A stretch of 64,000 nucleotides of DNA from Hypnocyclicus thermotrophus (GCF_004365575.1 NZ_SOBG01000004.1:1-64000); one strand, 5' to 3'; positions 8,140 through 41,609 are shown, numbered from the stretch's first letter. Made by a program: numbers and translations. Notes: generated by a model not told the origin, from the sequence alone.

Positions 8140-8152
8140 AAATAACACTCCT

Positions 8153-9394: not shown

Positions 9395-9435
9395 TATCTA
9401 TTTCACCTCTTTAATATTTCTTTATAATATTAATA

Positions 9436-9460
9436 AAGGGGTATTAGCTTAATACCCCTT
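9436..9460 (-). other. Perfect stem-loop between acpP and fabF
   Basis: The arms AAGGGGTATTA and TAATACCCCTT form an 11-bp perfect stem with a 3-base loop. No T run follows on either strand, so it is not a classical terminator. It could stabilise the 3' end of acpP mRNA, act as a processing site, or partly reduce read-through into fabF. Confidence 0.6.
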
Positions 9461-9485
9461 GATCACAAACATTTATATCTTTTGA

Positions 9486-9710: not shown

Positions 9711-9742
9711 TCTATTACCTCCTAATTTTTTCTTCATATATG

Positions 9743-9771
9743 ATAATAACAAATTTTCTTTATTTTTTCAA
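9743..9771 (-). promoter_or_regulatory. Sigma70-type promoter of acpP
   Basis: On the minus strand there is TTGAAA (9766-9771), a 17-base spacer and TATTAT (9743-9748), about 33 bases before the acpP start codon. Element match and spacing are close to consensus. Confidence 0.75.
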
Positions 9772-9832
9772 GAAATTTTGTTAAAAAAACAACATAAAAT
9801 AAACTTTATAATGCATAATTAAATATAAAAGT

Positions 9833-10588: not shown

Positions 10589-10603
10589 AACATCCTCCTA
10601 AAC

Positions 10604-22137: not shown

Positions 22138-22239
22138 TTTCTTTCCTCCAAAAGATTATTTATTTTTCACAATTCTAAATTAAGTATACGAAATTATGAA
22201 AATTTTATTTATTTTTCTTATTTATATTCTAACCTCTTA

Positions 22240-22800: not shown

Positions 22801-22812
22801 ATTATTTCTCCT

Positions 22813-24165: not shown

Positions 24166-24174
24166 AATCATCTC

Positions 24175-27100
24175 CTATTCAAAGTGACAAATTACTTTAT
24201 CCACTCTTTTCTCTCTAAGCTTATAAGCAACTTCTCCAGAAATCATATTTCCGGAAACTTCTATTTTTTCTCCCTCAATAAATAACTCTATCTTACTTAT
24301 TTTTACTCCATTTTCTCCATAAGTAGATTTTTTAGATGGATTTATATATTTTATATTAATTTTTGAAAATAACTTAAATTCAATTTCTCCATTTTCATTA
24401 AAAAATTCTGTATTTATTTTTGGATTAAATGTAAATGTTAAATCATTATTTCTATACTCAAATAATTTATCACCTATAAAAATGTACTTCCACATACTTA
24501 AAAATTCTGCTGTAGATCCACTAAGTCTTGCACTAAATCCTTGTCCGTGTAGATTTTCATTTCCATTTGCACTACTTACTATAAATGATGAATTTTCAAG
24601 TACACTTCTTCCGTATGTTTTATAATCTAAAAATGGTGGTAACATAGTTTTTATATCTTTATAAAATTCATCTACTAAATTAGCTTTTAATATCTCTAAT
24701 AAGTATTTGAATTCCATATGCATAAATATAGATTCATTTTCTAGCCATCCTGGCGTGAATGCTCTAAGTCTTCCTATACTATATGGTTCATTTTCTATGC
24801 TTTCTGATGTTTTATACATTTTTAATTTTTTATCATATATATTTGATTCTTTTACAAATTTATATAACTGTTTTTGCTCTTCATTATCTATTATTTTAAA
24901 TGCTCTTGCTACTCCCTCTAAAAAATGTGGTAATGCTCTTACATCAAATTTTTTAGGAGTTATTATTCCATCTTTTTCTTCGTATTCTGTTAAAGTATAT
25001 GTGAAATATGTAGGATAAATTCCTTTCCCATACTCTTTTGCTAATTTTATTCCTTTTTCCATTTTATTTAACATTTTTTCTATAGTTTTTATTAAAAACT
25101 CTTTTTCTACTATTTCTTTTGCTCCATCAATATAAAAAAATACTTTTTCTCTATAAGCCTCTTTTAAAGTTGCTACTTTATCCCAATACTCAAATTGATT
25201 ATTATTTTCAAAATAATTATCTAATTCATTAGAAATTCCTATAATAAAGTCTTTTAATTCAACTAATATTTCAAATTGATTATTATTTGTAGATTTTAAA
25301 TTTTCTAATAAAAATTCTAATATTCTTTTTAATTCAAAAGTTTCACTCATTCCAGAACCAATTATTCCAGGAAGTCCATTTAATGCATCATTCCATCCTG
25401 GTTTATTAGCTTCCATTTCAAGCCCCATTCCTAATGGATCAAGTGTTGCAAATTTATTTATTCCTAAAAGAAGAAGTTTTTCAAACATATTTGTTGAATA
25501 TATTTCTCTAGTTTTGTCAACTAAATAATTATGACCTCTTTCTTTTAAAATTTCTTCTTTTTTATGATTTTCAAGTACTGCTCCTATTTGCATTACATTC
25601 CCTTTGTAAATTTTGTATTTATCCTTTCTTGCTTGTACAAACGCAGGACTATCAAATACTCTATATTTATTTTTATTAAATAAAATCTCTTCTATTTTTT
25701 CTGGATATATTTCTTTATATGAATCAATTAAATCCATTAAATATGTAAAATGATCAATCCAGTATCCTTCTCCAAATTCTGCTTGCTCAAACTGTTCACA
25801 GTCGTACATTAGTTTATTTATAAACTCTGTTTCATTTACTTTTAAATTAATTTTATTATTATTAATAAATGTTAAAACTTCTCCAGGAGTAAAATAATTA
25901 TTTAATAAATATTCTCTTAATTCATCCATTTTATTTTCAACTAATTCAAATATCTTTGAATTAGAATCTAATCTAAATACAGTTCCTTTTACAACTAACG
26001 GATTATTTCCATCAGCTTGAATAAAATTAATAAACATATTTAAATTGAAATCTTCTATTTCTGGATTAAATAATATATCATTTCTTCTGTTTTGTAATAC
26101 GTCTCTAAAATTTCCATTACCTTGAGAATATTTATTTGCTTGTAATGAGAAAAAATTATAATCTCTTTCTAAATCTCCATGTTTTCTAGAAAATATATGA
26201 TATACATTTTTACCATTTTTACTATCAAATACTAATGGATAACCTCCTCTTAAAATATTATCCATATAATTTTGCTCACAATATTTATTAAACAATTCAT
26301 TTGAGGTTTTAGTATAAATATTGTCAACTACTTCTTCAATTACTTCATCAGCTTCTTTTAATTTTCTTTCAACAAACTCATTTGTTTTCAAGATATTAAT
26401 TTTTGCATTTATATCATCTCTATCTTCAGCAAAGCCAAACATACTATTTATTATCATTTTTTCATTTGATTTTACTATTTTTTCAATACAAGAAAATGCA
26501 CTTGGAAGGGTATTTTCACAATATTGTTTTTTTAATAAAATCTCTTTTAATTTCTCATTTTTAAAATTATACGGAACTTGTAAACTCGTGTTCATTTCAA
26601 ATAAAATATTTTTATCATATATAACATCTAAAAGATTATCTTCATTTGTTGCAAAATAAAAGTATCCACTTTTTATCTCTTCAACTACTTCTATATCTCC
26701 AATTTCTGTTCTTACACCATAAAATGGAACTTTTTTATCTGTATTTGATATTTGCATCCAAGCTCTAGCTGTAAATCCCATCTCCTTAAATAATGTGCTT
26801 GAAACACCATATGGCAATACTTCTGGTAATCCATCTACTATTTCTATATTTTTATCTTTATCAGATAAATTTTCTATTTCTACTCTTCTTATTAATCCAG
26901 GAAATTCTTCATTTGAAATAGTAAAATAAACCACTTTTACTTTTAATTCTAATTCTTTATTTATTTCTACTATTTCTAATTTATTTTTGTATATATACAT
27001 ATCTCTACTAATGTTATCGCTATGAGTTGTTTCTGAAAATGCTTCATAATATTCATTTTCAATTTTTAAAAATGTTCTAAACCCTTTTAAAGGTGTCGAT

Positions 27101-27297
27101 GTATAACTTTGATCAGCTGGTTTAAATTCCATTATAGAATTGTCTTTATTTGTAATCCCAAAACTAGCAATTCCCTGACCTCTGTTTACATAAAATACCC
27201 ACATCGGTATACCTTCTTTACCTGCAATCCCTGGTAAAAAACTAGAAAAACATTTTTGTTTATCATAGTTGTTAATTAAAAAATCAGTCTTTTTCAT
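24175..27297 (-). CDS. GH94-clan glucoside phosphorylase, probably GH161-like beta-1,3-glucan phosphorylase
   Basis: This 1040-residue cytoplasmic protein is a second, distinct GH94-related phosphorylase. It begins with SSFLPGIAGKEGIPMW (18-33) and FYVNRGQGIASFG, then SRKHGD (370-375), GNFRDV (395-400), GYWIDH (511-516) and GWNDALNGLPG (634-644) with the expected catalytic aspartate. From memory this pattern resembles family GH161 (the Paenibacillus beta-1,3-oligoglucan phosphorylase type). It differs from the 1124-residue protein throughout, so the two are not a recent duplication. Two extra ATG codons lie upstream; the third ATG has GGAG at proper spacing and I use it. It overlaps the yesN-like gene by 14 bases and lies 9 bases from GH30. 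Confidence 0.78.
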   Translation of the reverse strand: MKKTDFLINNYDKQKCFSSFLPGIAGKEGIPMWVFYVNRGQGIASFGITNKDNSIMEFKPADQSYTSTPLKGFRTFLKIENEYYEAFSETTHSDNISRDMYIYKNKLEIVEINKELELKVKVVYFTISNEEFPGLIRRVEIENLSDKDKNIEIVDGLPEVLPYGVSSTLFKEMGFTARAWMQISNTDKKVPFYGVRTEIGDIEVVEEIKSGYFYFATNEDNLLDVIYDKNILFEMNTSLQVPYNFKNEKLKEILLKKQYCENTLPSAFSCIEKIVKSNEKMIINSMFGFAEDRDDINAKINILKTNEFVERKLKEADEVIEEVVDNIYTKTSNELFNKYCEQNYMDNILRGGYPLVFDSKNGKNVYHIFSRKHGDLERDYNFFSLQANKYSQGNGNFRDVLQNRRNDILFNPEIEDFNLNMFINFIQADGNNPLVVKGTVFRLDSNSKIFELVENKMDELREYLLNNYFTPGEVLTFINNNKINLKVNETEFINKLMYDCEQFEQAEFGEGYWIDHFTYLMDLIDSYKEIYPEKIEEILFNKNKYRVFDSPAFVQARKDKYKIYKGNVMQIGAVLENHKKEEILKERGHNYLVDKTREIYSTNMFEKLLLLGINKFATLDPLGMGLEMEANKPGWNDALNGLPGIIGSGMSETFELKRILEFLLENLKSTNNNQFEILVELKDFIIGISNELDNYFENNNQFEYWDKVATLKEAYREKVFFYIDGAKEIVEKEFLIKTIEKMLNKMEKGIKLAKEYGKGIYPTYFTYTLTEYEEKDGIITPKKFDVRALPHFLEGVARAFKIIDNEEQKQLYKFVKESNIYDKKLKMYKTSESIENEPYSIGRLRAFTPGWLENESIFMHMEFKYLLEILKANLVDEFYKDIKTMLPPFLDYKTYGRSVLENSSFIVSSANGNENLHGQGFSARLSGSTAEFLSMWKYIFIGDKLFEYRNNDLTFTFNPKINTEFFNENGEIEFKLFSKINIKYINPSKKSTYGENGVKISKIELFIEGEKIEVSGNMISGEVAYKLREKRVDKVICHFE

Positions 27298-28693
27298 CAT
27301 CATCTCCTATCTCTCCTTCTTCTTTATATCTTAATCTATATTCTATTGGTGTGATTTTTTCTATTTTTTTAAATATTTTTGAAAAATGTTTTGGATTCTT
27401 ATATCCTACTTCTTCTGCTATTTCATATATCTTATAATCTACTCTTTTTAAATATTCTTTTGCTTTTTCTATTCTTATTTTGTTTAAATAATCTAAAAAA
27501 TTCATTTCAAGATGTTTTTTAAAAATTGTTGAAAAATATGAATAATTTAATGAGACATAATTTGATACAACTGCCATATTTATATCTTTATTATAATTTT
27601 GTTTTATATATTCTAATGCTTTTTCTATATATACTTCTTCTATATTTTTACTATTCTCTTTTATAGAGCATATTTTTTTGAATGATTCCAAAATTTTATT
27701 AATATATTCTTTCATATTTTTACTTTTAATTTTTAAAAAATTTTCATTTAAAATATCTTTTTCTATTTTATCCTGATTTTTCAGAAAAATTCTTAAATAA
27801 AATAAGTTATGCAATTTTTCAAAACTTTCAATATCTCCATTGTTTATAAATTTATCATTAAATAGACTATTTATTTCTTTCTCTATTTCTTTAATTTTAC
27901 CATATTTTAAATAATTATATATAGTATCTATTTTTTCATTATCTATTTCAATTTTTTTTCTATTTTTTATATTTTCATAAGTTATATTCTCTTTTTCAAA
28001 AAATATTTTATATTTTTTTAATTTTTCTATTTCATTAAAACTATCTTTTATACTTTCTTTTTTACTTCGGCATAAAAAATTGTACTCTATATCAGAAAAA
28101 TCTATTTCTTTTTCAGATAAAATAATATATTGATTTTCATTTATATTTACAACTATATCTGATAAGCTATTTATATTATAAGTAGTTTCAATATAATAAC
28201 AAGTTAAATTTTTTATATTTTTCTTTAATTTAATTAACAATTTTTCTATTTTATTATATTTCTTTCTTTCTAAAAAGATTAAAAAATCTTTTATAAAATC
28301 CTTTTTTTTATTTTGATTTTCTTTTTCTATTTCATTAAATATTTCATAAATATTATCTCTAAGCTCTTTTTCATCAATAGGTTTTAGTAAATAATTTTTC
28401 ACTCCATATTGTATACTTTGTCTTGCGTATTCAAACTCATTAAATCCACTTAATATAATAGTTTTTATCTTTTTATCAAGTTTATTTACCTCTTTAAGTA
28501 GTTCCATCCCATTCATTGTAGGCATATTAATATCTGTTATGATAATTTCAAATTCTTCTTTCTCTATTATTTCTAATGCTTCTTTTCCATTTTTCGCTAA
28601 CTTAATATCTAAATCAATAAAATTATTTTCTAATATTGTAGCAATTCCTAATCTAATAAATTTTTCATCATCTACAACTAAAATTTTTTTCAT
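27284..28693 (-). CDS. YesN-type response regulator, receiver plus AraC DNA-binding domain
   Basis: This is the transcription factor of the two-component pair. The 469-residue protein has a receiver domain (1-120) with the acidic pocket D8-D9, phosphoacceptor D54 (ITDINMP) and K104 (LLKPID). A long, poorly conserved linker follows (about 125-355). The C-terminus is an AraC/XylS double helix-turn-helix (about 362-465) ending near the second-helix signature GYKNPKHFSKIFKK. It lies 5 bases after the kinase gene. AraC-type regulators bind direct repeats; the 40-bp boxes at 34010-34049 and 40244-40283, each with a 20-base-spaced direct repeat, are the proposed sites. Confidence 0.9.
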   Translation of the reverse strand: MKKILVVDDEKFIRLGIATILENNFIDLDIKLAKNGKEALEIIEKEEFEIIITDINMPTMNGMELLKEVNKLDKKIKTIILSGFNEFEYARQSIQYGVKNYLLKPIDEKELRDNIYEIFNEIEKENQNKKKDFIKDFLIFLERKKYNKIEKLLIKLKKNIKNLTCYYIETTYNINSLSDIVVNINENQYIILSEKEIDFSDIEYNFLCRSKKESIKDSFNEIEKLKKYKIFFEKENITYENIKNRKKIEIDNEKIDTIYNYLKYGKIKEIEKEINSLFNDKFINNGDIESFEKLHNLFYLRIFLKNQDKIEKDILNENFLKIKSKNMKEYINKILESFKKICSIKENSKNIEEVYIEKALEYIKQNYNKDINMAVVSNYVSLNYSYFSTIFKKHLEMNFLDYLNKIRIEKAKEYLKRVDYKIYEIAEEVGYKNPKHFSKIFKKIEKITPIEYRLRYKEEGEIGDDDEKD

Positions 28694-28698
28694 TCATA

Positions 28699-30312
28699 TC
28701 ACATCTCTTTTATTTTTATTAATATCCTAGTAAATTTATCTTTTTCACTTTTTATTTTAAATATGACCTCCGACTTAAAATATAAGTTTAATCTTTCTTT
28801 TATATTTTCAAGACCTATACCACTCCCTTTTGTTGTCTCTCTTATCCCTATACCATTATCTAAAATATCAAATATTAAATTTTTATTTTCTCTTGATATT
28901 TTTATTTGAATAATTCCTTTTTTATTTGACGGTATAATTCCATGTAAAATAGAATTTTCTACAAGAGGTTGTAGTATCATCTTAGGAATTTCTTGTTCTT
29001 TTAATTCTTCTCCTATAAAATATCTAAATTCTATATATTCATCAGTTCTTATAGAAAAAAGTTCTATATATCGTTTAATATAATCTATCTCTTCATATAT
29101 TTTTACTTCTGTTTTATTTATATTCATACTATAACGAAGTATTCTACCAAGGTTAGTAATTGCTTTAGATACTTTGTAATCTTTATTTATATAAGCTATC
29201 ATTTTTATACTTTCAAGAGTATTTTGTAAAAAATGACTATTAATCTGAGATTGTAATGCTTTTATTTCAAACTCTCTAGATTTTCTTTCTCTCATTATAT
29301 TATCCTCAATTAATTTTTTTATTCTCTTTGTCATAGAGTTTATTTGCATTGTTAAAACATAAAAATCATCAACTTTATTATTTAATGGAATTTCGACATC
29401 TAAATTTCCATTTTTTATCTCTTTTATTCCTTCTATTATATATTCTAATTGTTCAAATATTCTAATTGATACAAAATAAGATATATAATATATAATAATA
29501 AGACTAATTATTGCTATAAACATAAGATAAATTCCATATGTTATCATATCTTTATTTATATTGTTTTTCTCTATATAGTTTATAAAATACATATCTAAAA
29601 AAGGTATGTATTTATAATAAATAATAGATCTATTATCTTCTATTAAAGAAATTTTTTTCTTATTCATGAACTCGTGTTTATAAAACTTTTCAAAATTAAA
29701 TATACCATTTTTTAAATCTATTGTATAGTCATTTTTTACAAAATAATATTCCCCATTATCTTTACCTATTATTTTGTCCAAATCTATTTTAAGTTCTAAA
29801 TATACACTTTTAGGATAAAAATATATTTTTTTTATTGAATAAATGTAATTTTTATTATTTTCTCTAATTATCGTAGTATTATCTTTTAACAAACTTTTAT
29901 CTGGTAAATGATTTTTTATAATTGGTTGTATCTCTAACAAGTTTTTATTATCAACATATATTTTAAATTCTGATATTTCTTTCGAAATAGATAGTATTTT
30001 TTCATAATTATTAATTGTTTTTTTTATTTCTAAATACTCTAATGGTTTTTTTTCTTTTTCAGAAGTTAAAAATTCTAATAATTCAAAATCACCTCTAAGT
30101 ATTGTTTTTATTCTCTCTAATTTAAAAAAATTTTCATTTAAATTATTAGCTATCTGTTCAGTTCTATAAAATCTGTCTTTTTTTATTTTTATCTCTTGCG
30201 TTTCATTTAATGTATAAAAAATATATATAGCAATAATTATTACAGGAATAAAAATTATTGCTATATATGCAAAAGATAGTTTCTTAAATATTTCGCTTTT
30301 AATTTTTTTCAT
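28699..30312 (-). CDS. YesM-type sensor histidine kinase
   Basis: This inner-membrane sensor has 537 residues. Two membrane segments (about 13-35 and 257-282) flank an extracytoplasmic sensor domain of about 220 residues, followed by HAMP (283-340), the His_kinase domain with phosphoacceptor H360 in QSQINSHFLQNTLE, and an ATPase domain with LVENSILHG and GSGIGLENIKERL. The layout matches the LytS/YesM class that pairs with AraC-type regulators. The ribosome site (AAGAGG) is buried in a long hairpin with the upstream sequence, so its translation may be throttled relative to the abundant solute-binding protein. The ligand is probably a glucan oligosaccharide, by context. Confidence 0.9.
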   Translation of the reverse strand: MKKIKSEIFKKLSFAYIAIIFIPVIIIAIYIFYTLNETQEIKIKKDRFYRTEQIANNLNENFFKLERIKTILRGDFELLEFLTSEKEKKPLEYLEIKKTINNYEKILSISKEISEFKIYVDNKNLLEIQPIIKNHLPDKSLLKDNTTIIRENNKNYIYSIKKIYFYPKSVYLELKIDLDKIIGKDNGEYYFVKNDYTIDLKNGIFNFEKFYKHEFMNKKKISLIEDNRSIIYYKYIPFLDMYFINYIEKNNINKDMITYGIYLMFIAIISLIIIYYISYFVSIRIFEQLEYIIEGIKEIKNGNLDVEIPLNNKVDDFYVLTMQINSMTKRIKKLIEDNIMRERKSREFEIKALQSQINSHFLQNTLESIKMIAYINKDYKVSKAITNLGRILRYSMNINKTEVKIYEEIDYIKRYIELFSIRTDEYIEFRYFIGEELKEQEIPKMILQPLVENSILHGIIPSNKKGIIQIKISRENKNLIFDILDNGIGIRETTKGSGIGLENIKERLNLYFKSEVIFKIKSEKDKFTRILIKIKEM

Positions 30313-30401: not shown

Positions 30402-32030
30402 TTATTTTAATCCTAATTTAGCTTTATTTTCTTGCATTTTTTTACTTCTATATGCTTCTAATTTTTCAAATCCAACTTTATTTCTATAATCAATAAAATC
30501 TTGTAGTATATCATCAAATTCTTTTTCTGATTCTGCAGTTATTAATTTACCAATAACTGTAGATCTTTTTAATGCAATTTTATCAGCAATTATTCCTTCT
30601 GGAGTATTTTTCTTAGGTTCTATCATTTCCATTTGGAATCTAGGATATACTTTTCCATATGTCCATTCAATTGGTTGTTTACTAGGTCCTGCAGGTGGTA
30701 ATCCCCATTTTTCTTGTTGCATAGCAACATCCATAAACATCCAATGCATATCATCAGCACCATGAATTTGATCAAATGCTTTTCTGTTTTCTTCTCTTAA
30801 TTTTTTTACTTCTGGTAATAATTGAGGTTTACCGTCAATCATATCCCAAGTTTTCCCTTGTTTTCCTAAATAAACTGTTCTTTGTCCTTCTTCACTTATC
30901 ATATATGTAAAAAATCTAATCGCTTTTGCTGGATCTTTACAGTTTTTAGATATTAATGTAACTGTCCATCCACTTATTCCTGGTCCAGCTAATTGATGTT
31001 CATCACCTTTAGAATTTTTAGGCCCATCTACAGCTATGTATACTGAATTTGGATCTTCTTTATATCTTACTGTTAAAGGTCTTAACGCATCTATATGAGG
31101 ATATAGCATTGAAAAATATCTTCCTTGAGACATTTTTTCTTCGATTTGTGATCTTTTATCAACAAATACATCTGTAGCAATAAGTCCTTCTTCATAAGCT
31201 TGTCTAAATGTTTTTAACCATTTTATATAGTCAGGATCTGTATATCTATCATATACTTTTCCATCTTTTTCTAATGGTACTGCTAAGAAATTTTGTAAAT
31301 AATCACCTAAACTATTTTCAACTCCTTCTTGAAATCCAATAGGAATAATAGGTTGTCCATTTACTGTAGGAAATTTTTCTTTTACCGCTCTTAAAGCTTT
31401 TAAAAATCCTTCAGGTGTAGTCATATCAGGACTTCCTATAGCTTCATACATATCTTTTCTTACTAAGAAAGTTTGATTCGAACTAATTTTTGTAGCTGTT
31501 TTATAATCTTCTAATGTATAAGATGCATTTGGATATCCATAAGTATGTCCATCTTCTTGTTTAAACCAATTTAATTTATCTTTGCTAGCTATTTTAAAGA
31601 AATACGGATCATATTTTTCTGCTAATTCATCAAGTGAATATACTTGACCACCTTTTATCATTAAATCAATAATAGAATCTCTTGCATCTAAAGTAATCAG
31701 ATCTGGTAAAGTACCAGAAGCTATCATTGTATTTAATTTTTCTGTACCATTTCCAGCTGGTACTATATAATTTACAGACACTCCAGTTTTTTCTGTAATT
31801 TCTTTTGTTACATAATCTTCTCCCCATTTTCCTCCAAACCAAGAATAGTTAATATACCAATCAAATGTTACTTTAGAATCATCTTGTTGCCATCCTGGTT
31901 TATTAGGATTAACTTTCACTTTCTCTTCTTTTACATCTTTTTTCTTATTAAAGAAAAGCCCTGCATTTACATTTACTACCATAATTGAGAACATAAGTGC
32001 TAATGTTAAAAATAATTTTCTCTTTTTCAT
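30402..32030 (-). CDS. ABC transporter oligosaccharide-binding protein (LplA/YtcQ type)
   Basis: This is the periplasmic substrate-binding protein of a CUT1-type importer. The 542-residue precursor has a classical signal peptide with likely cleavage after VNVNA (about residue 23) and no lipobox cysteine, so it is a soluble periplasmic protein rather than a Gram-positive lipoprotein. The mature part matches the family-1 binding fold with KLNTMIASGTLPDLI (about 98-112). AGGAGG precedes the ATG. It follows the two permease genes by 42 bases. With GH16 enzymes and beta-1,3-glucan phosphorylases around it, laminari-oligosaccharides are the expected ligand. Confidence 0.88.
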   Translation of the reverse strand: MKKRKLFLTLALMFSIMVVNVNAGLFFNKKKDVKEEKVKVNPNKPGWQQDDSKVTFDWYINYSWFGGKWGEDYVTKEITEKTGVSVNYIVPAGNGTEKLNTMIASGTLPDLITLDARDSIIDLMIKGGQVYSLDELAEKYDPYFFKIASKDKLNWFKQEDGHTYGYPNASYTLEDYKTATKISSNQTFLVRKDMYEAIGSPDMTTPEGFLKALRAVKEKFPTVNGQPIIPIGFQEGVENSLGDYLQNFLAVPLEKDGKVYDRYTDPDYIKWLKTFRQAYEEGLIATDVFVDKRSQIEEKMSQGRYFSMLYPHIDALRPLTVRYKEDPNSVYIAVDGPKNSKGDEHQLAGPGISGWTVTLISKNCKDPAKAIRFFTYMISEEGQRTVYLGKQGKTWDMIDGKPQLLPEVKKLREENRKAFDQIHGADDMHWMFMDVAMQQEKWGLPPAGPSKQPIEWTYGKVYPRFQMEMIEPKKNTPEGIIADKIALKRSTVIGKLITAESEKEFDDILQDFIDYRNKVGFEKLEAYRSKKMQENKAKLGLK

Positions 32031-32072: not shown

Positions 32073-32957
32073 TTATTCTTTTACAGCTCCTAATAACATT
32101 CCTTTAACAAAATATTTTTGTAAGAATGGATATACTGTTACTATTGGGAATGTTGTTAGAACCATTGTTGCTAATTTTATAGATTCCGATGTAGTTTTTG
32201 CAACATTTGTAAGTGTTGCTGGCATTGCATCCATCATTTGATTTGATGAACTTTGTGCTATTACTTTATATAAAAATGTTTGTATTGGTTGTAAGTCTGG
32301 ATTATTAATATAAATTACCCCTGTAAAAAAATCATTCCAATGAAATACTCCATTAAATAAAGCTATTGTAGCAATTACCGGCATAGATAACGGTAAGACT
32401 ATCTTTATAAATATCTGAAAATCATTTGCGCCATCTATATACGCTGATTCTTCCAAACTTTGCGGCAATTCTCTAAAAAATGATTGAAATATAATCAAAT
32501 CAAAGAAACTAAATAATGTTGGAATAATATATACTAAAAAATTGTCTAAAAGACCTATTTTTTTTATTAATAAGAAAGTAGGAATTAACCCACCATTAAA
32601 AAACATTGTAATTATTCCAATTGTTAAATAAATTTTTCTTCCTGCTAATTCTCTTTTAGAAAGTCCATAAGCAACCATAGCTGTAAAAAAAACGTGTGTA
32701 ATAACCCCTATAACAGTTCTTGAAATAGTTATTCCAAATGCTTTAAATATACCTGGTGTTTTAATTACTGTAATATAACTTTCTATACTAAATTTTCTTG
32801 GCCACCAATATATTCCTCCAAGCATAGTATCACTAGCATCGTTAAATGATAAAACAAGTGTGTACCATACTGGATAAATTATTATAAAACAAAATAATAC
32901 CATTATTACTGTATTTATTATATCAAATGTTTTTTCACCTTTTGATCTCATACTCAT
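32073..32957 (-). CDS. ABC transporter permease (YtcP/CUT1 type)
   Basis: This is one of two membrane subunits of the oligosaccharide importer. The 294-residue protein has about six membrane segments and the EAA loop ESAYIDGANDFQIFIKIVLP, which docks the ATPase. It matches the YtcP/AraQ group. AAGGAGG fits the ATG at 32957. The gene lies 15 bases after the LplB-type gene and 42 before the binding protein. No ATPase gene is present in the locus; as in many CUT1 systems, a shared MsmK/UgpC-type ATPase encoded elsewhere must supply energy. Confidence 0.92.
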   Translation of the reverse strand: MSMRSKGEKTFDIINTVIMVLFCFIIIYPVWYTLVLSFNDASDTMLGGIYWWPRKFSIESYITVIKTPGIFKAFGITISRTVIGVITHVFFTAMVAYGLSKRELAGRKIYLTIGIITMFFNGGLIPTFLLIKKIGLLDNFLVYIIPTLFSFFDLIIFQSFFRELPQSLEESAYIDGANDFQIFIKIVLPLSMPVIATIALFNGVFHWNDFFTGVIYINNPDLQPIQTFLYKVIAQSSSNQMMDAMPATLTNVAKTTSESIKLATMVLTTFPIVTVYPFLQKYFVKGMLLGAVKE

Positions 32958-32972: not shown

Positions 32973-33929
32973 CTAAAATAGCGCTTTACCATTTATTTTT
33001 TTACTTGTATAATTTGCAGATACTAGTAATATAAATGCTATTACAGACTTAAATAATCCAACTGCTGTTGCATATGAAAATCTAAGTGATTGAAGCCCCA
33101 TTTTATACACAAAAGTATCAATAACTTCACTTGCTGATAAGTTTAATGGATTTTGTAATACTAACATTTGTTCAAAGTTTGTATTTAAGATTCCACTTAC
33201 TGCAAGAATAAATAATATTGTTATTGTTCCTTTTATAGAAGGAAGTGTAATATGCCAAATTTGAGCCATTTTCCCGGCACCATCAATTTTTGCAGCCTCA
33301 TAAAGTGTTGGGTTTATCCCCGCTATTGCTGCTAAATAAATAATTGCATTCCATCCTAATTCTTTCCAAATATCTGATATAATTGATATTCCCCAAAAAT
33401 ATTTTGGATGTGCTAAAAAAACTATCGGTTCTTGAATAATACCTACTCCCATTAATACTTTATTCATAAGTCCTGTTTGAGATAACCAATTTATCATTAT
33501 CCCACCAAGCACAACCCATGAAAAAAAGTGTGGAAGATATGATATTGTTTGTACATATTTTTTTAGTTTACTATTATATAATTCATTAAGCATAATAGCA
33601 AACGCTATTGGTAATGGAAACCCAATAATTAATTTTAACACGCTAATTCCCAACGTGTTTTTCATAACAAGAAAAAAATTATCATCCATAAAAAATTCTT
33701 TAAAATTTTCTAATCCTACCCATGGTGCACTATTAAAAGTATCAATTATAGTATAATTTTTAAATGCTATAATGATTCCATACATTGGAATATAATTAAA
33801 TATAATCATCCAAATAATTCCAGGTATAACCATTAAATGTAAATACTTCTGTCTTTTAATTAATTTCCAAGTTTTTTTTAATTTCTCATTAAAATTTTCT
33901 TTTCTCTTTAATGACCCTGGTTGTTCCAA
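32973..33929 (-). CDS. ABC transporter permease (LplB/CUT1 type)
   Basis: This is the other membrane subunit of the importer, of the LplB/UgpA group. The 318-residue protein has a basic N-terminal region, six membrane segments starting at HLMVIPGIIWMII, and the EAA loop EAAKIDGAGKMAQIWHITLP. I take the TTG at 33929 as start: GAGGTGAGAGG precedes it at proper spacing, whereas the in-frame GTG at 33938 lies inside that site. The distance from this start to the upstream 40-bp box (81 bases) also equals that for the GH16 gene (80), supporting the choice. It is the first gene of the inner transport-and-phosphorolysis set. Confidence 0.9.
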   Translation of the reverse strand: MEQPGSLKRKENFNEKLKKTWKLIKRQKYLHLMVIPGIIWMIIFNYIPMYGIIIAFKNYTIIDTFNSAPWVGLENFKEFFMDDNFFLVMKNTLGISVLKLIIGFPLPIAFAIMLNELYNSKLKKYVQTISYLPHFFSWVVLGGIMINWLSQTGLMNKVLMGVGIIQEPIVFLAHPKYFWGISIISDIWKELGWNAIIYLAAIAGINPTLYEAAKIDGAGKMAQIWHITLPSIKGTITILFILAVSGILNTNFEQMLVLQNPLNLSASEVIDTFVYKMGLQSLRFSYATAVGLFKSVIAFILLVSANYTSKKINGKALF

Positions 33930-34009
33930 ACCTCTCACCTCTTTTTCTTTTTTTGTTCTATTTAATTATTAACTATACAATAATAGTACTATTTATTCAT
34001 AAAAATAAA

Positions 34010-34049
34010 AAGATAAGTATTTTGAGATTTGGTATCTATTTTTTGGATT
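34010..34049 (-). promoter_or_regulatory. 40-bp regulatory box B before the transporter operon
   Basis: This 40-base element matches box A (40244-40283) at 33 of 40 positions without gaps. On the minus strand it holds two AATCnnAAAAT-type units starting 20 bases apart, about two helical turns, the layout expected for an AraC-type dimer, and ends in TATCTT. It lies about 81 bases before the lplB start and just after the GH16 lipoprotein gene. The likely binder is the YesN-type regulator encoded in the same operon. Confidence 0.7.
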
Positions 34050-34066
34050 TATATTTTTTTATAAAT

Positions 34067-34876
34067 TTATTCATATGTTATTACTTTTATATAATCTATT
34101 TCCATTATTTGCGGAAAAGTAGTATTAATATCAGGAGATTCTGGCCAATTTCCACCAACTGCTACATTTAATATTATAAAAAAATCATCATCAAATACCC
34201 AATTTGAAATATTACTTCGCTTTTCCTCGTGGTACATTTCATTATCTACATACCATTTTATTGAAGTAATATCCCACTCCACTTTAAATATATGAAAATC
34301 ATCTGAAAAGTCTCCACTAGATAAAGTATAATTAGAGCTTTTTCCATTAGCTCCAGAATATCCTGGTCCATGAATAGTACCATATATTTTAGAAGGATTA
34401 TCACCTAAAAGTTCCATTATATCTATTTCACCACAATCTGGCCATCCTTTTGTAGATATATTTTCTCCAAGCATCCATATAGCAGGCCAAATTCCTTTAC
34501 CTTTTGGTAATTTAGCTTTTACCTCTACAGTCCCATATGTAAAACTAAATTTCCCTTGTGTTTTTAATCTACTTGATGTATATTGATATCCATTTTTATT
34601 TTCTTTTTTAGCAGTTATTATTAATTTACCATCTCTTAATTCACTGTTTTCTTTAGTATAATATTCTAATTCAGCATTCCCCCATCCATTGTTCCCATTT
34701 CCTACTTCAAATGTCCAGATATTTTCATCTATTTTATCCCCATTAAAGTTTTCTTCCCACACTACTTCTTTTTTATCACTATTATCAATTATTTTTATCC
34801 CACCATTTGTTTTATTAAATCCCCTATTACACCCAATAAATAAGATTAAGATTATAAAAACTAAATATTTTTTCAT
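34067..34876 (-). CDS. GH16 beta-glucanase lipoprotein
   Basis: This 269-residue secreted enzyme belongs to GH16 (laminarinase-type endo-beta-1,3-glucanase). A lipoprotein signal ends at the lipobox LFIGC (C16), so the protein is anchored in a membrane, probably facing outward or the periplasm. The catalytic motif GEIDIME gives nucleophile E150, D152 and acid/base E155; WPAIWML marks the substrate cleft. It has no extra binding module, in contrast to the large GH16 of the same locus. It is preceded by a long palindrome and followed by the box before lplB; transcription probably comes from the upstream porin set. Confidence 0.93.
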   Translation of the reverse strand: MKKYLVFIILILFIGCNRGFNKTNGGIKIIDNSDKKEVVWEENFNGDKIDENIWTFEVGNGNNGWGNAELEYYTKENSELRDGKLIITAKKENKNGYQYTSSRLKTQGKFSFTYGTVEVKAKLPKGKGIWPAIWMLGENISTKGWPDCGEIDIMELLGDNPSKIYGTIHGPGYSGANGKSSNYTLSSGDFSDDFHIFKVEWDITSIKWYVDNEMYHEEKRSNISNWVFDDDFFIILNVAVGGNWPESPDINTTFPQIMEIDYIKVITYE

Positions 34877-34902
34877 TAAGAACTCCTTATTATAATTTTA
34901 AC

Positions 34903-34934
34903 AATAGCCTGCTAAAATATTTTAACAGGCTATT
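34903..34934. other. Long palindrome before the GH16 lipoprotein gene
   Basis: AATAGCCTG (34903-34911) pairs with CAGGCTATT (34926-34934), and the interior TAAAAT/ATTTTA continues the pairing after one C-A mismatch, giving a 32-base near-perfect palindrome. No T run follows on either strand, so a terminator is not clear; RNA processing, mRNA stabilisation or protein binding are possible. The rest of the 128-base gap holds nothing else that I recognise. Confidence 0.55.
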
Positions 34935-35004
34935 TTAGAGGAGATGTTTAAAACTGTTACTACTTCTATATAAAAGTATTCCCTTTATACATTTTCTTAC
35001 TACT

Positions 35005-35808
35005 TTATTTTTTTAATAAACTAATATTAGAAATTCTTACTGTTGTTGCTGCATCTGAGCCTGTGCCTGATACATTTCCTAATTCAAACACTAATTGACA
35101 ATTACTTGCATCTGCTGCAGTCTCTGTAGATGTAAATGCTATTGTTTTTGTTTCTTTTGTTGTTATTACACTTATTTTTTCAGAATGTTGTTCGTTCCAC
35201 CATGGATCACTTGATAAACCTTCTCCTACTTTTACATTTATATCCCTTGCTTCATCTGCTTCTATATCAAATGTTATTGTATAATTAGTACTATTTTCTA
35301 ATGCAGATGGTAATGTGAAGTATACTTTTGTTGAATAACTATTACTTCCTATTGCATTTATTTTTGCTATTAATTCATCTCCATTTCCTGTTGCTGTTAC
35401 ACTTCCACCATCACCCTCATATTTTCCTATTATGTATGCATCACTTTCCCCTAAAAAATCTGCTGTTACTTTTGTTGTATCTACTACATTTGCTGCTGTA
35501 ACAGTAATTTCTTTTGTTGCTACATTTCCATCTATTGCTAAAGTTATTATAGTAGTTCCTTCTTTTATTCCTGTAACTACCCCTTTGTCTGATACTGTTG
35601 CTATAGATGTATCTAAACTTTTCCACACTACTCTATCATATTCAACTCCTATAGGTTCTATAACTGCTGAAAGTTGAATAGTTTCTCCTATGTTTAAGCT
35701 AGAATCACCACTTATTGATACACCTTCAACTTTTGTTGTTTCAGGTTTTAAACAAGCTGTAAACATAGATAATACTAGTATTAATAATAATGCTCTTACT
35801 TTTTTCAC
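35005..35808 (-). CDS. Big2-domain lipoprotein with C-terminal carbohydrate-binding module
   Basis: This 267-residue lipoprotein has a signal ending in the lipobox MFTAC (C19). Residues about 28-108 form a bacterial Ig-like (Big2) domain (VEGVSISGDSSLNIGETIQL and a SLDTSIATVSDKGVVTG stretch). Residues about 115-267 resemble a CBM4/9-type carbohydrate-binding beta-sandwich, ending in VRISNISLLKK, like the terminal strands of the modules in the large GH16. No catalytic motif is seen. Between the porin and the GH16 lipoprotein it probably captures glucan chains at the cell surface, a role like that of SusD, though unrelated. The start is GTG with AAGGAGG upstream. Confidence 0.8.
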   Translation of the reverse strand: MKKVRALLLILVLSMFTACLKPETTKVEGVSISGDSSLNIGETIQLSAVIEPIGVEYDRVVWKSLDTSIATVSDKGVVTGIKEGTTIITLAIDGNVATKEITVTAANVVDTTKVTADFLGESDAYIIGKYEGDGGSVTATGNGDELIAKINAIGSNSYSTKVYFTLPSALENSTNYTITFDIEADEARDINVKVGEGLSSDPWWNEQHSEKISVITTKETKTIAFTSTETAADASNCQLVFELGNVSGTGSDAATTVRISNISLLKK

Positions 35809-35848
35809 TAAAAACCCTCCTTATTTAATTATATTTTTTATTTAATTA

Positions 35849-37762
35849 TTAAAATGCTACTGTAATACTAGCTTTTAATTCATGTGTTATATAGCCCGAA
35901 TAATCATCAGCTACGTCCCACATCCAATTTTCCCAGTCACTTCCAGAGTGCGACCAACTTTCTAATCCATCATACCAAACATGGCTAACTTCTTTTTTAT
36001 ATACTGAATTTTCTAATTCTGTTTTACTAGCTTCTCTGTTTAATTTATAATTATCATATTTATACATTAAATCAAATGTTACATCATTTACTACATATTT
36101 AATTCCTGTTTTTATCAAATATTGTCTTCCATAAGCATCTTTTATAACATCATTGTTTTCAGTAGCATATCCAAAATTATAACTTCCATATAAAGTAGTT
36201 TTATCATTCATTTTATAATCTGAAGAAGTTCCTACTTTTATTCTTTGTTCATTTGAAAAGTTTTGTGAAATTGTATTATCGTCACCAGTATAGTAATTTA
36301 CATCTACATTTATATTAGTATTTAATTTTGCGCCTTGAACTAATGCATATCTAGCATTTACATTATAATCATTATAAAGAATATCTGTTTCTTCTACCCC
36401 ACCATTAGATACATCTTTTCCACTATTTGTTTTCACAAGTCTTCGATAGCTCCCAGCTACTCCCCATTTATCTTCATTTATTTCTACTTTTCCTAATAAT
36501 TGTGTTTCGTTAGTATCTTCATTATCATTTAAAGCTGATCTAGTTTTATCATAATTTGTGTAATCAACTGTTGTTTTTACTATTAAATCAAATGGTAATG
36601 TATAAACAATTTTTCCATTATATCCTTTTTCATATCCTGTTCCATCTTCATATGCAAAACTAGCATTCCCAAGCCATGAATCATGTCTCTGAGAATTTCC
36701 AAGTACCGCAGTATAATCTTCTCCTACATTTTTATATCCAACAGATACTTCTAAATCATCAAACGGAGTAACAACTACTGTGGCATCTACTATTGTATTA
36801 TCTTTTTTAGCATCTACTCCACTTAAATCATAGCTATCTGTAATCCAAGGAATAACTTGTCCTGTAGTATTCATTACAGATGTTACATCCTTTCCATAGT
36901 TTGCTATTATATATTCTCCTTTTATACTTACTAAATCAATTGGTGCAAATTCACCATTTACTGCCAATCTTAAAGTATCTAAATCTTTACCAAAATTACT
37001 TCCTGATATTTCACTAGACTTATCATGTACATTTACCGCTAATACTCCTATATTTCCTAATCCAAAATCTTTTTTAACATCAAATCCATATACCAATTTT
37101 GTTGACTTAAGATCATTTTGTGTTAAATTTGAAGCTGTATTTGTTGTTACATCTTTACCATCTATACTTGAAGGTGCTTCACTTGCTTGAAACATAAATG
37201 TTTTTGTAGTAAATCCATACACGTCATCATTTTCTAATAATACTCCTTCACCATAAGGTAATGGTTCTCCCCAATTATCTTCTAATTGCATAGCTAATAC
37301 TCTTTTATTAAAATCAAAATTAAAATTATTTGTTAATGTAAATTTCCCTATATCAGTATTTGTTGTCAATGTTATATCTTTAATTATTAGTGGAGAATTA
37401 TCTCTTACTGTAGCAAATTCTTGTCCATAAGTTATTCCTGAACCATTTGCTTGACCTATTAATTCATCAATTATAGTTTCAAATCCTAAGTTTATATTTG
37501 TATTTTCATTTAATTTAACATTACTATTTAAATTTAAAATAGCCTGAAATTTATCTCTATTATCATTCCAGTTATCATTTGTTGATTGTTTCCAGTCTCC
37601 AGTACCAAAAATATTCCCATTACCATTCATCGAGTACCATTTATTTCCGTTTATTTCTCTAAATTCATCAAAGAAAAACTGTAGTGACCCACTCATATCA
37701 ATTTGTGCTGCTGCTGCAGTTATTGAAAATAATGCTAAAGCTAAAGCTACATGTTTTTTCAT
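35849..37762 (-). CDS. Outer-membrane beta-barrel porin
   Basis: This 637-residue precursor has a classical signal peptide (cleavage after AAAAA/Q near residue 20) and a body of repeated amphipathic, Asn/Asp-rich strands. It ends in LKASITVAF; the terminal phenylalanine is the hallmark of BAM-inserted outer-membrane barrels. There is no TonB plug domain, so it is a porin or passive channel and not a SusC homologue. Within the glucan locus it is the obvious route for laminari-oligosaccharides across the outer membrane. AAGGAGG precedes the ATG. It lies between the large GH16 and the Big2 lipoprotein, in the same transcript. Confidence 0.85.
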   Translation of the reverse strand: MKKHVALALALFSITAAAAQIDMSGSLQFFFDEFREINGNKWYSMNGNGNIFGTGDWKQSTNDNWNDNRDKFQAILNLNSNVKLNENTNINLGFETIIDELIGQANGSGITYGQEFATVRDNSPLIIKDITLTTNTDIGKFTLTNNFNFDFNKRVLAMQLEDNWGEPLPYGEGVLLENDDVYGFTTKTFMFQASEAPSSIDGKDVTTNTASNLTQNDLKSTKLVYGFDVKKDFGLGNIGVLAVNVHDKSSEISGSNFGKDLDTLRLAVNGEFAPIDLVSIKGEYIIANYGKDVTSVMNTTGQVIPWITDSYDLSGVDAKKDNTIVDATVVVTPFDDLEVSVGYKNVGEDYTAVLGNSQRHDSWLGNASFAYEDGTGYEKGYNGKIVYTLPFDLIVKTTVDYTNYDKTRSALNDNEDTNETQLLGKVEINEDKWGVAGSYRRLVKTNSGKDVSNGGVEETDILYNDYNVNARYALVQGAKLNTNINVDVNYYTGDDNTISQNFSNEQRIKVGTSSDYKMNDKTTLYGSYNFGYATENNDVIKDAYGRQYLIKTGIKYVVNDVTFDLMYKYDNYKLNREASKTELENSVYKKEVSHVWYDGLESWSHSGSDWENWMWDVADDYSGYITHELKASITVAF

Positions 37763-37845
37763 AATTCCTCCTTATTTTGTTTTATTTTTAGTTAATAATT
37801 ATATTTTTAAAAAAATTATTTTATATAAAAAATTATTTTTTCATT

Positions 37846-40164
37846 TTACTCTTTTACAACTTCAAATTTAATATTATCTAGTTTTACTGTATGTGGTCTA
37901 TTTTTAGTTTTTCCTACTTTCCCTAATAAAAACTTTAATCCTACTTCTTCTGATTTATCCGCTACAAATTCTATAGTATAAGTTTTTGGTTTTTTCTCTG
38001 CTTTTACTAGTGCTTGTCCTTTTCTTTGATATGTAGAGTTTTCAATGCTTACTCTTATCTCTCTTGCTCTACTACTTGAAATATCAAAACTTACTCTATA
38101 TTTTATTCCTTTTATTATATTTACATTTTGTGATAAAATATTACTCCATTCTTCAGCTCCTATATCTTTTACTTTTATTTGAGCAGTACCGCTTCTTATT
38201 ACAAATGTAGATTCTCCACCAAATCCATAATCTTTACCAAAGAATAATGTCCAATTTTTCTTTGTAGAACCTTTTGAAAAATTATCATCAATTAATATAG
38301 TTTGAATTTTTGAATAATCCACTTGTTCTGTCATTTTAATATTGTCTAATGTTAACTCATCTTTAGAGCCTAAAAATTCAAATATTAAGCTTGTTCTCAA
38401 GTCTGTTATATTTTTATTAGTAAAATTAATTTTATACTCTTTTTCTTCACTCGAAAGTTTTATTTTTTGTTCAAAATATTTTTTGTTTCCATTTTTATCT
38501 TGTAAAATTATTCTTATACTATTTCCTTTTTCTGATTTTGCCTTAAATTTAAGGTTATATATTGCATCTTGTTTTAATTGAATATTTTCTTGAATTAATT
38601 TTGGATTATCACCATTATTTATTATATTTAATACTCTTTCTATAACTTTTGCTTCACTATTAGTTGATTTAAAATCCCAAAATAACATTCTTTTTTGATC
38701 ACCTTGATCAAATGTACCATTATAAACTAAATTTCCATTTACTAAAGGTGCTTTACTCATTGATAACAACTCTTTTACTGGATCTTCTATCATTTCAAGC
38801 TTTATATTCCCAAGCCATACTCCTAATTTTGAAAGACCTAAATGAAATTCTACTTTTCCATTTGGATCACTATCTTGTATCATCTGAAACATTGTAGTGT
38901 ATCTATTTATATCTTTTGTTAAATTAAAAGTATTAGTATGGTAAGCTGCCCATCCTCTATTTTCACCGCCACCAATTTTTATACCTATTTCTCTATTATT
39001 TTCAGCTTTTGCATCAAAACTTAATTTATAGTATCTACCTTTCATTATTGGAGCTTCTTGAATTACTTGTATTGAGTACGATTGATTTCCTTGATTATCA
39101 ATATTCGCTTTTAAAAATTTCTCTCCATTTATAGTTTCATACGTATAACTTCCCGCTCCTCCAAAATGAGTAAGTAATTGCCAATTTTCTCCATTATTAG
39201 CAAAATCTCCATTATATATAAAGTTTCCATTTATTGGTTGTTTTATATCTGCTGGTAATTTTTCTAAATCAATTTTAGGTTTTGATATATTTTCATTGTA
39301 TCCACCTTCTAATTCATATACTCTAATATAATCTACTTCTAAAGTTTCAGGAAATTTTGTGCTCCCGTCTGGATCTCCATCAAACCATCCACCAACTGCT
39401 AAATTCATAATTAAATAAAAAGGTTGGTCAAATGGCGCAGGATATGTATAATCCACTGCTTCATTTTTATTTTTTGAATACCAGTTATTTTGTACTTGAT
39501 ATAATTCCCCATCTACGTACCATCTAATTTCTCCAGGTAACCACTCTACTATATAATCATGAAACTCTGTTGCATCACCATTTTTAAAATGGTACTCTTT
39601 TCCAGTATGTACATTTGCTGGCCAAGTTCCACCGTAATGAAGTGTCCCTGCTATTTTACTAGTGTCACTTCCCCAGCCTTCTATCATATCTATTTCTCCA
39701 GAAGCTGCCCAACCTCCATAAACATCATCTTGAGGTAACATCCATATTGCTGGCCAAAGTCCTTTTCCTTTTGGTAATTTAGCTCTAAATTCTACTTTCC
39801 CATATTTTTGAGCAAATTTTCCCTTTGTTACTATTTTTCCTGATGTATAACTAAATTTTTGTTTCCCGCCTGCTGCTTCGCCTTCAAAAGATTCTTTTTT
39901 TGCAGTGATTATTAATTTACCATCAGCTACTTTTATATTATCTTGTCTATCTGTATAATATTCTTTTTCATTGTTCCCCCAACCAGCAACCCATGTACCA
40001 TTAGCCCAAAATCCATTACCAATAATATAATCCCATTTTGAACTATCTAATTTATTTCCGCTAAATTCATCTTTCCAAGTTAAATTCCATTTTTCATTTG
40101 CATTTGCAAATAATTGCATTGATAATAATAACAAAAACACTAGCCAAGTGCTTTTTCTTCTCAT
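37846..40164 (-). CDS. Secreted multimodular GH16 beta-glucanase with three CBM4-like modules
   Basis: This 772-residue precursor has a Sec signal peptide (cleavage after LFANA, about residue 22). The GH16 domain (about 27-283) has the catalytic GEIDMIE with nucleophile E157, D159 and acid/base E162. Three CBM4/9-like modules follow at about 315-455, 478-608 and 628-772, each opening with an NG(N/T)F- or DDNF-type strand and closing with an (L/I)DNIK-type strand. No lipobox is present, so it is periplasmic or exported. It is the first gene of the outer set and lies 80 bases after box A. Endo-cleavage of laminarin or a similar beta-1,3-glucan is the expected activity. Confidence 0.93.
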   Translation of the reverse strand: MRRKSTWLVFLLLLSMQLFANANEKWNLTWKDEFSGNKLDSSKWDYIIGNGFWANGTWVAGWGNNEKEYYTDRQDNIKVADGKLIITAKKESFEGEAAGGKQKFSYTSGKIVTKGKFAQKYGKVEFRAKLPKGKGLWPAIWMLPQDDVYGGWAASGEIDMIEGWGSDTSKIAGTLHYGGTWPANVHTGKEYHFKNGDATEFHDYIVEWLPGEIRWYVDGELYQVQNNWYSKNKNEAVDYTYPAPFDQPFYLIMNLAVGGWFDGDPDGSTKFPETLEVDYIRVYELEGGYNENISKPKIDLEKLPADIKQPINGNFIYNGDFANNGENWQLLTHFGGAGSYTYETINGEKFLKANIDNQGNQSYSIQVIQEAPIMKGRYYKLSFDAKAENNREIGIKIGGGENRGWAAYHTNTFNLTKDINRYTTMFQMIQDSDPNGKVEFHLGLSKLGVWLGNIKLEMIEDPVKELLSMSKAPLVNGNLVYNGTFDQGDQKRMLFWDFKSTNSEAKVIERVLNIINNGDNPKLIQENIQLKQDAIYNLKFKAKSEKGNSIRIILQDKNGNKKYFEQKIKLSSEEKEYKINFTNKNITDLRTSLIFEFLGSKDELTLDNIKMTEQVDYSKIQTILIDDNFSKGSTKKNWTLFFGKDYGFGGESTFVIRSGTAQIKVKDIGAEEWSNILSQNVNIIKGIKYRVSFDISSSRAREIRVSIENSTYQRKGQALVKAEKKPKTYTIEFVADKSEEVGLKFLLGKVGKTKNRPHTVKLDNIKFEVVKE

Positions 40165-40243
40165 TTCTTCACTCTCCTTTGTTTTGTTTTGATACTTTTT
40201 TTTTACTTACAATACAATTAAACCACTTTATAATACAAAAAAT

Positions 40244-40283
40244 AAGATAGATATTTTTGGATTTGGTTTCCATTTTTTTGATT
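40244..40283 (-). promoter_or_regulatory. 40-bp regulatory box A before the GH16-porin operon
   Basis: This element matches box B at 33 of 40 positions. On the minus strand the repeated units AATCAAAAAAAT and AATCCAAAAATA start 20 bases apart and run into TATCTT, followed 8 bases later by TATTAT/TATAAA, a likely -10. It lies 80 bases before the GH16 start codon. It is in the divergent spacer with the HPt-like gene but 52 bases from that gene's -35 box, so an effect there is uncertain. Confidence 0.7.
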
Positions 40284-40654: not shown

Positions 40655-41326
40655 ATGAATATTTTAATTGTTGATGATTGTATTGAATTAGCAAACAAAA
40701 TAAAAGAAACTTTTGATAAATCTTATACAGTTTATATTGAACATACTCCTAATAAAGTATTAGACATTGTTAGTTCAAATGAAATAGATCTTATTATAAT
40801 GGATATAGATTTAGGTCATTCAAAAAATGGTTTTGATTTAATTAGAGAAATACGAAATGATGCTGATAATTATGGTATTCCTTATATTTTTGCATTAACA
40901 GCTAAAAAACAAGATTTTTATGAAGAAATGGGATATAATTTAGGTGTTGATGATTATTTAAAAAAACCTTTTCGTTTAAAAATATTAAATGAAAAAGTTA
41001 AAATTTTAGCAAAACGAATAAAAAAATCTACTTCAAATTTACAGTATGGTAATTTAATATTAAAATCTGATACTAACGAAATATTGATTGAAGATAATAA
41101 CTTTTTTTTAAATGATCCGTACTTTTCACTTTTAGAATTTTTAATATTAAACAAAAATATAAATCTGTCTAGAAAAAAAATTTTTGAAAATATATGGCCT
41201 GAAGAAATAGTTGATAATTATAGAAGAGTTGATGTTACAATAAAAAGATTAAAAGATAAAGTCCCATATATAAAAGATAAGATAGAGACTATTTATGGTT
41301 TTGGATATAAACTTATAAAAATTTAG
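40655..41326 (+). CDS. OmpR-family response regulator, no adjacent kinase
   Basis: This 223-residue transcription factor has a receiver domain (1-115) with D7-D8, phosphoacceptor D50 (IMDIDLG) and K104 (YLKKPFR), and a winged-helix DNA-binding domain (about 130-223) ending in the family signature TIYGFGYKL. AAAGGAG precedes the ATG. No sensor kinase gene is next to it, only the HPt-like gene, so it may receive phosphate through a relay from a hybrid kinase elsewhere. Its 3' end is overlapped by the first copy of the tandem repeat. Confidence 0.88.
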   Translation: MNILIVDDCIELANKIKETFDKSYTVYIEHTPNKVLDIVSSNEIDLIIMDIDLGHSKNGFDLIREIRNDADNYGIPYIFALTAKKQDFYEEMGYNLGVDDYLKKPFRLKILNEKVKILAKRIKKSTSNLQYGNLILKSDTNEILIEDNNFFLNDPYFSLLEFLILNKNINLSRKKIFENIWPEEIVDNYRRVDVTIKRLKDKVPYIKDKIETIYGFGYKLIKI

Positions 41327-41327: not shown

Positions 41328-41463
41328 CAAAAAATACATATGCTCCTGAAGATTTCTATCTTCAGGAGCACTATATATTAATAGACTAACCCCTTTGTCC
41401 ATCTTAATTATATCTTTAACTTATTACTAACTTGTTACACAGTTTGTTTTAATTGTTTTTTTA
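41328..41463. repeat. Tandem repeat, copy 1, with perfect 13-bp hairpin
   Basis: This unit begins CAAAAAATACATATGCT, the same as copy 2 at 41471. It holds a perfect 13-bp hairpin (41341-41353 with 41358-41370, loop TTCT), then an AT-rich stretch with a core (about 41379-41430) that is nearly identical in both copies and includes AGACTAACCCCTTTGTCCAT. On the minus strand the core encodes a short peptide start MDKGVSLLI in an open frame 41313-41402. No function is known. No T run follows the hairpin closely on the plus strand, but a T6 run lies a few bases beyond on the minus strand. Confidence 0.75.
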
Positions 41464-41470
41464 TTTTTTT

Positions 41471-41595
41471 CAAAAAATACATATGCTTTTAAAAATTTTT
41501 ATCTTCAGAAGCATATGTATTAATAGACTAACCCCTTTGTCCATCTTAGATATATCTTTAACTTATTACACATTTTATTTCAATTGTTTTTTTTA
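41471..41595. repeat. Tandem repeat, copy 2, with decayed hairpin
   Basis: Offset 143 bases from copy 1. The first 17 bases and the core are the same, but the left hairpin arm has changed (GCTTTTAAAAAT instead of GCTCCTGAAGAT), leaving a 9-bp stem CATATGCTT/AAGCATATG; an 11-base segment of copy 1 is missing near the end. The minus-strand frame again starts MDKGVSLLI (41470-41544). Together with copy 1 this fills the 346-base spacer between the OmpR-type gene and accD, apart from the accD promoter. Confidence 0.75.
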
Positions 41596-41609
41596 TATTA
41601 TTATTACTC

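Follow-up and report, generated by a model that had tools for sequence, protein, structure and literature searches.

At the araBAD promoter of Escherichia coli, AraC, an activator with two helix-turn-helices (HTHs) per monomer, binds araI1-I2, two 17-bp direct half-sites with a 21-bp period, the proximal one touching the -35. Here we describe two 40-bp boxes in 64,000 nucleotides of Hypnocyclicus thermotrophus (GCF_004365575.1 NZ_SOBG01000004.1:1-64000; hereafter the window), one ahead of an operon beginning with a glycoside hydrolase family 16 (GH16) gene, and the other ahead of an operon beginning with lplB. The boxes are a real conserved operator, representing a kind of gene switch already known, and, judging from sequence, they are most probably operators for a YesN-type response regulator that governs a class-II activated beta-1,3(/1,6)-glucan regulon.

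AraC-type two-component regulators of CUT1 sugar transporters are known in Caldicellulosiruptor bescii (AviRS, MosSQ, and AxeRS; PMC8579813); XynDC of Geobacillus (PMC4194401) and XydSR of clostridia (PMC3572039) are also described, with XygSR cited in PMC8579813. For the AraC/XylS family, no operator consensus had been identified (PMC3572039). Beta-1,3-glucan clusters with GH161 and GH94 are described in Bacillota and Acholeplasma (PMC6484121), and we found no mention of regulators or of fusobacteria in that paper.

Two matched boxes and a conserved operator

Box A (40244-40283) and box B (34010-34049), which lie on the minus strand, agree at 33 of 40 positions in an ungapped alignment, as the original prediction had described, and its distances to the start codons are also correct, with 80 nt from the promoter-side end of box A to the GH16 ATG (40164) and 81 nt from that of box B to the lplB TTG (33929). 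That the boxes match by chance in AT-rich DNA, or through a recent promoter duplication with no regulatory role, is extremely unlikely. This reading draws on the composition of the window (25% GC), which holds other AT-rich 33/40 direct matches, namely a duplication at 41.3-41.6 kb, two GH16 paralogues, and three distant AT-rich chance pairs; 33/40 alone is not unique in such DNA, and it is the matched promoter position that gives it significance. When the two promoter regions were simulated 2,000 times with a first-order Markov model, the best 40-nt match averaged 25.4 and peaked at 31 (30 when only matched distances are counted), never reaching 33, and the flanks of boxes A and B align poorly outside the box; both results speak against chance or duplication.

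The duplication at 41.3-41.6 kb is a segment of ~100-140 bp with a strong hairpin (41340-41371), present as a tandem duplicate at 41328-41600 with up to 38/40 identity, and it sits between an OmpR-type regulator gene (40655-41326) and an accD-like gene (41673).

Many unrelated copies across the genome, named in the original prediction as the sign of a common AT-rich motif, did not turn up in our genome-wide tests, which were pattern searches. At up to three mismatches, the box pattern has two matches in the whole window (none in 100 shuffles) and exactly two in the 2.2-Mb genome (none with the reversed control). Extra three-mismatch sites at 54099-54135 of the window, within a coding open reading frame, and at C11:41365 were rejected, the boxes themselves having 0 and 1 mismatches.

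Using the lplB protein as query, we fetched 80 loci, nearly all from Bacillota plus two from Fusobacteriota, and in 77 of them the same operator stands no more than 350 nt ahead of lplB (0 of 240 shuffles scored over threshold); in a further locus (L029) it stands farther out, ~460 nt upstream of lplB, at 9541 (40.1 bits). The operator is a direct repeat of 17-bp half-sites, C[CT]RAAAWWTnGnnMCCn and YRAAAWnTGAnnCCTTA, separated by 4-5 nt. Its elements in the window are as follows.

40243-40283, minus strand: box A, operator of the GH16 operon; half-site 1 at 40264-40280 (CAAAAAAATGGAAACCA), 4-nt spacer, half-site 2 at 40243-40259 (CAAAAATATCTATCTTA)
40217-40222, minus strand: predicted -10 of the box A promoter, TTTAAT, read directly from the sequence, starting 21 nt past half-site 2
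34009-34049, minus strand: box B, operator of the lplB operon; half-site 1 at 34030-34046 (CCAAAAAATAGATACCA), 4-nt spacer, half-site 2 at 34009-34025 (TCAAAATACTTATCTTT)
33983-33988, minus strand: predicted -10 of the box B promoter, TACTAT, read directly from the sequence, starting 21 nt past half-site 2

Among 79 aligned sites, both window boxes included, the half-site period is 21 in 49, 22 in 26, and 20 in 4, and a TANNNT hexamer starts 21 nt past the operator in 67. The promoter-proximal half-site reaches the -35 region, with the -10-like hexamer at a fixed distance, a class II layout for these predicted promoters. The AraC-family dimer geometry proposed earlier is borne out by two direct-repeat half-sites with a period of 21 or 22 in 75/79 sites, both window boxes among the 75. 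The AATC units from which it had been argued fare less well: both boxes do have the tetranucleotides at a distance of 20 nt, but the loci do not share the second AATC, so we rejected AATC as the repeat unit; what is conserved is CnRAAA-n7-MCC, repeated every 21 or 22 nt. An ungapped 40-nt matrix was likewise abandoned for the two-half-site model, since one matrix fits poorly when the period is either 21 or 22. The equal distances from the boxes to the start codons follow from this operator-to--10 architecture, shared by both promoters, and from leaders of similar length. They had been offered in support of the TTG start of lplB, and the start also agrees with a Shine-Dalgarno sequence, GAGGTG, placed 6 nt ahead of it, and with retention of this TTG in the locus of a same-genus relative (L005, a Fusobacteriales metagenome-assembled genome).

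A model trained without the window and without L005 ranks box A first (21.1) and box B second (17.1) in the 64 kb; on 20 random 64-kb sequences its best score is at most 18.7, with a median of about 11. One such score would not decide the matter, but the two boxes taking the top two places does. L005 retains both of them together with the promoters downstream; the DNA upstream of either box aligns poorly there. That other genomes yield a model which recovers both boxes, and that both are conserved in L005, again speaks against chance or duplication. In a family-wide pattern search of 61 genomes, the box was found in two, the same two that have a yesN orthologue; the second of these, a congener (G039), is probably one and the same genome as L005, since their box sequences are identical.

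The DNA directly upstream of both boxes in L005 (2490-2650 and 9740-9880) is filled with degenerate GTG-rich repeats (like TTTGTGTAA...CCGTGG) that do not occur in the window.

The 1.61 Mb of loci contain 15 further sites scoring >22 bits (none with the reversed matrix), and in 12 cases a -10 hexamer follows at an offset of 21-22. Such operators precede GH16 genes in six loci (L005, L011, L025, L027, L031, and L008), a GH1 gene in L010, and a GH94-type phosphorylase gene in L065; GH16 under the same operator thus recurs in Bacillaceae, Caldicoprobacter, and fusobacteria. Strong sites (40.3 bits) stand before a ThuA-like gene in L040 (17042-17790) and L060 (17040-17780), which suggests that ThuA proteins may belong to some YesN regulons. 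A site before a GH30 gene in a Defluviitalea locus (L007) scores 17.1 bits, below the threshold.

YesN as the predicted regulator

The original prediction assigned the boxes to a single AraC-type response regulator, YesN-like, encoded at the locus. We find a protein with a REC domain and an AraC-type HTH there, and it is the only such protein in the genome: there are three AraC-type HTH_18 proteins, of which YesN alone is known to carry a response-regulator domain. The existence of the other two, and the fact that YesN binding is predicted from sequence, leave room for a different transcription factor acting at the boxes, but we consider this very unlikely. Both are short (C2:322791 and C8:7580; 289 and 262 aa) and neither is encoded near a box, whereas YesN is encoded behind box B and has homologues in 75 of the 80 loci. 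Four of the remaining loci (L006, L020, L074, and L075) end at contig ends, and only L042 is a true absence. In L042 (9980-14217), lplBCA is followed by a ThuA-like gene, with neither yesMN nor the operator, and both are present in L044, from the same strain; L042 thus appears to be a natural case of regulator and site being lost or absent together, which also speaks against another factor.

Covariation between recognition helices and operator bases points to YesN as well. The identity of base 13 in half-site 2 varies with that of YesN residue 432, where the HTH2 recognition helix starts: Glu accompanies C in 47/47, and Lys accompanies G, T or A in 16/16. After distance correction, this residue ranks first of 478 columns for base 13. 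Residue 389 in the HTH1 recognition helix, which we take to be equivalent to MarA R46, is top for position 2 of half-site 1 and within the top 16 for the RAAA purines. Raw mutual information across the YesN columns was dominated by phylogeny and by the variable linker, and was set aside for distance-corrected and tree-based versions, the latter being underpowered.

The prediction of a two-operon regulon with YesN sites is therefore supported by the two-copy uniqueness of the box, its conservation upstream of lplB, the recurrence of yesN among the loci, the joint absence in L042, and the presence of a sole AraC-type response regulator. Five observations weigh against it. First, the bare consensus skeleton is unspecific in a 25% GC genome, giving 228 matches at two mismatches versus 219 for the reversed control, and specificity is limited to the full box. 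Second, the -10 of box A (TTTAAT) is imperfect, its second base being T and not A. Third, in the other fusobacterial relative (L006), the LamB-lplB operon is preceded by no more than a weak candidate (5.1 bits). Fourth, the GCCTTA with which half-site 2 commonly ends has its first C replaced by T in fusobacteria, which is why most Bacillota sites outscore the window boxes. Fifth, when placed on a tree, the covariation of residue 432 with base 13 comes down to 3-4 independent changes, all concordant and too few for significance, so that it is suggestive, not significant.

In the mechanism we favor, a phosphorylated YesN dimer would bind the direct repeat, whose 17-bp half-sites lie about two helical turns apart, with one HTH of each monomer on CnRAAA and the other on MCC roughly one turn further. 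With the second half-site at the -35 region and the -10 at a fixed distance, YesN would be a class-II activator of promoters that have no good -35. YesM may sense an extracellular beta-1,3(/1,6)-gluco-oligosaccharide, directly or via the LplA binding protein, and phosphorylated YesN would then turn on both operons: operon A, for secreted GH16 glucanases, a surface protein, and an outer-membrane protein, and operon B, for the LplBCA importer, YesMN itself (positive feedback), GH30, and the GH161 and GH149 phosphorylases. We infer the phosphorylation dependence, the ligand, and the autoregulation from family knowledge and from the location of yesMN behind box B.

Alternatively, YesN might use the same site to repress, or to switch both ways, the unphosphorylated protein on the -35 region holding RNA polymerase off until the sugar appears; half-site 2 does reach the -35 region, and some AraC-family proteins both repress and activate. 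We regard this as unlikely. A generic sigma-70 promoter scan, which found no more sites than expected by chance, gave no promoter-like match on the minus strand at either predicted promoter, as would be expected of promoters that need an activator. The AraC-type two-component regulators of C. bescii with tandem repeats upstream of promoters are inferred to be activators, most characterized regulators of this family activate (PMC8579813), and XydR of Clostridium cellulolyticum, a related AraC-type response regulator, is modeled as an activator (PMC3572039). Activation by YesN is favored because there is no recognizable -35 and because similar sites in C. bescii are taken to serve activators (PMC8579813).

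More tentatively, and at somewhat less than even odds, operator and regulator could form a portable module with a readable code, in which residue 432 sets base 13 (Glu for C, Lys for G/T) and residue 389 follows the CnRAAA purine; the module would have moved with its cis-sites between Bacillota and Fusobacteriota, an outer-membrane protein gene being added there.

Genes of the two operons

The genes behind box A and then box B are as follows.

37846-40164, minus strand: GH16 glucanase with three CBM_4_9 domains, first gene behind box A (Pfam PF00722, PF02018)
35849-37762, minus strand: putative outer-membrane protein, 637 aa, judged by a signal-like N-terminus, by its position, and by the LamB porin gene ahead of lplB in the related L006 locus; DUF2490 matched only below threshold
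35005-35808, minus strand: surface protein with Big_2 and CBM_4_9 (domain matches)
34067-34876, minus strand: second GH16 enzyme, 269 aa (domain match)
32973-33929, minus strand: lplB-type permease with TTG start at 33929, first gene behind box B (PF00528; Shine-Dalgarno GAGGTG at 33936-33941)
32073-32957, minus strand: lplC-type permease (PF00528)
30402-32030, minus strand: lplA-type solute-binding protein (PF01547)
28699-30312, minus strand: YesM-type sensor histidine kinase (PF06580 and PF02518)
27284-28693, minus strand: YesN-type response regulator, proposed binder of both boxes (REC PF00072, residues 4-115; AraC HTH_18 PF12833, residues 377-453)
24175-27303, minus strand: GH161 beta-1,3-glucan phosphorylase (PDB 9qqk 'gh161 phosphorylase', E=1.3e-236)
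22813-24171, minus strand: GH30 glucanase, endo-1,6-beta-glucanase-like (PF02055, E=1.8e-84; NF053856 at 243.9 bits, under the curated cut-off of 700)
22240-22800, minus strand: DUF624 membrane protein (PF04854)
18763-22137, minus strand: GH149 1,3-beta-glucan phosphorylase (NF058639 at 1493.6 bits, cut-off 1150; PDB 6hq6)

The genes of the box B operon, from lplB through GH149, run in a single direction with short gaps, and the order lplB-lplC-lplA-yesM-yesN is found in the window and in nearly all of the 80 loci. The yesM gene, whose kinase product combines PF06580 with HATPase_c, adjoins yesN. Together, the domain assignments indicate a locus for beta-1,3(/1,6)-glucan use. The GH149 and GH161 phosphorylases, both with strong hidden Markov model or PDB assignments, share one fusobacterial operon with GH30 (18763-27303). 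A hairpin with no clear T-run, TAGCCTG...CAGGCTA (34900-34950), separates the Big_2 gene from the second GH16 gene and could be an attenuator or an mRNA processing site.

In L006 (a Leptotrichiaceae metagenome-assembled genome), a LamB porin gene precedes lplB and leads the lplBCA operon, with GH16 and GH1 genes divergent from it (4660-10912); an outer-membrane porin thus appears to be wired into the same transport operon.

Comparison with known systems

What began as an observation of two boxes has become a predicted regulon with a defined operator, common to most of the examined Bacillota lplB-yesMN loci and to two related fusobacterial genomes, and a beta-1,3-glucan function is assigned to the fusobacterial locus. 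The operator lets YesN-type regulons, many of them unassigned, be predicted along with their promoters and start codons, and gives a means of testing whether residues and bases follow a recognition code in AraC-type response regulators.

Like araI1-I2, the window operators have 17-bp direct half-sites, a 21-bp period, and contact with the -35. Unlike AraC, which binds sugar, YesN belongs to the response regulators, carries a REC domain, and is paired with a sensor kinase, and its half-site, CnRAAA-n7-MCC, differs. The C. bescii systems (PMC8579813) are alike in layout, with a two-component regulator beside a CUT1 ABC transporter and, in the AraC-type members, tandem-repeat operators upstream of the promoter; AviRS, MosSQ, and AxeRS serve other substrates than the window locus. 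XynDC, XydSR, and XygSR similarly place glycan transport or hydrolase genes under two-component control, of AraC type where this is stated (XydR and XygR), but act on xylan, straw, and xyloglucan, not on beta-1,3-glucan. The clusters of PMC6484121 resemble the locus in joining GH161 with GH16, GH30, GH3 or GH1 and with ABC transporter genes that include no ATPase gene; in contrast to those clusters, GH161 and GH149 here stand together in one operon of an outer-membrane bacterium.

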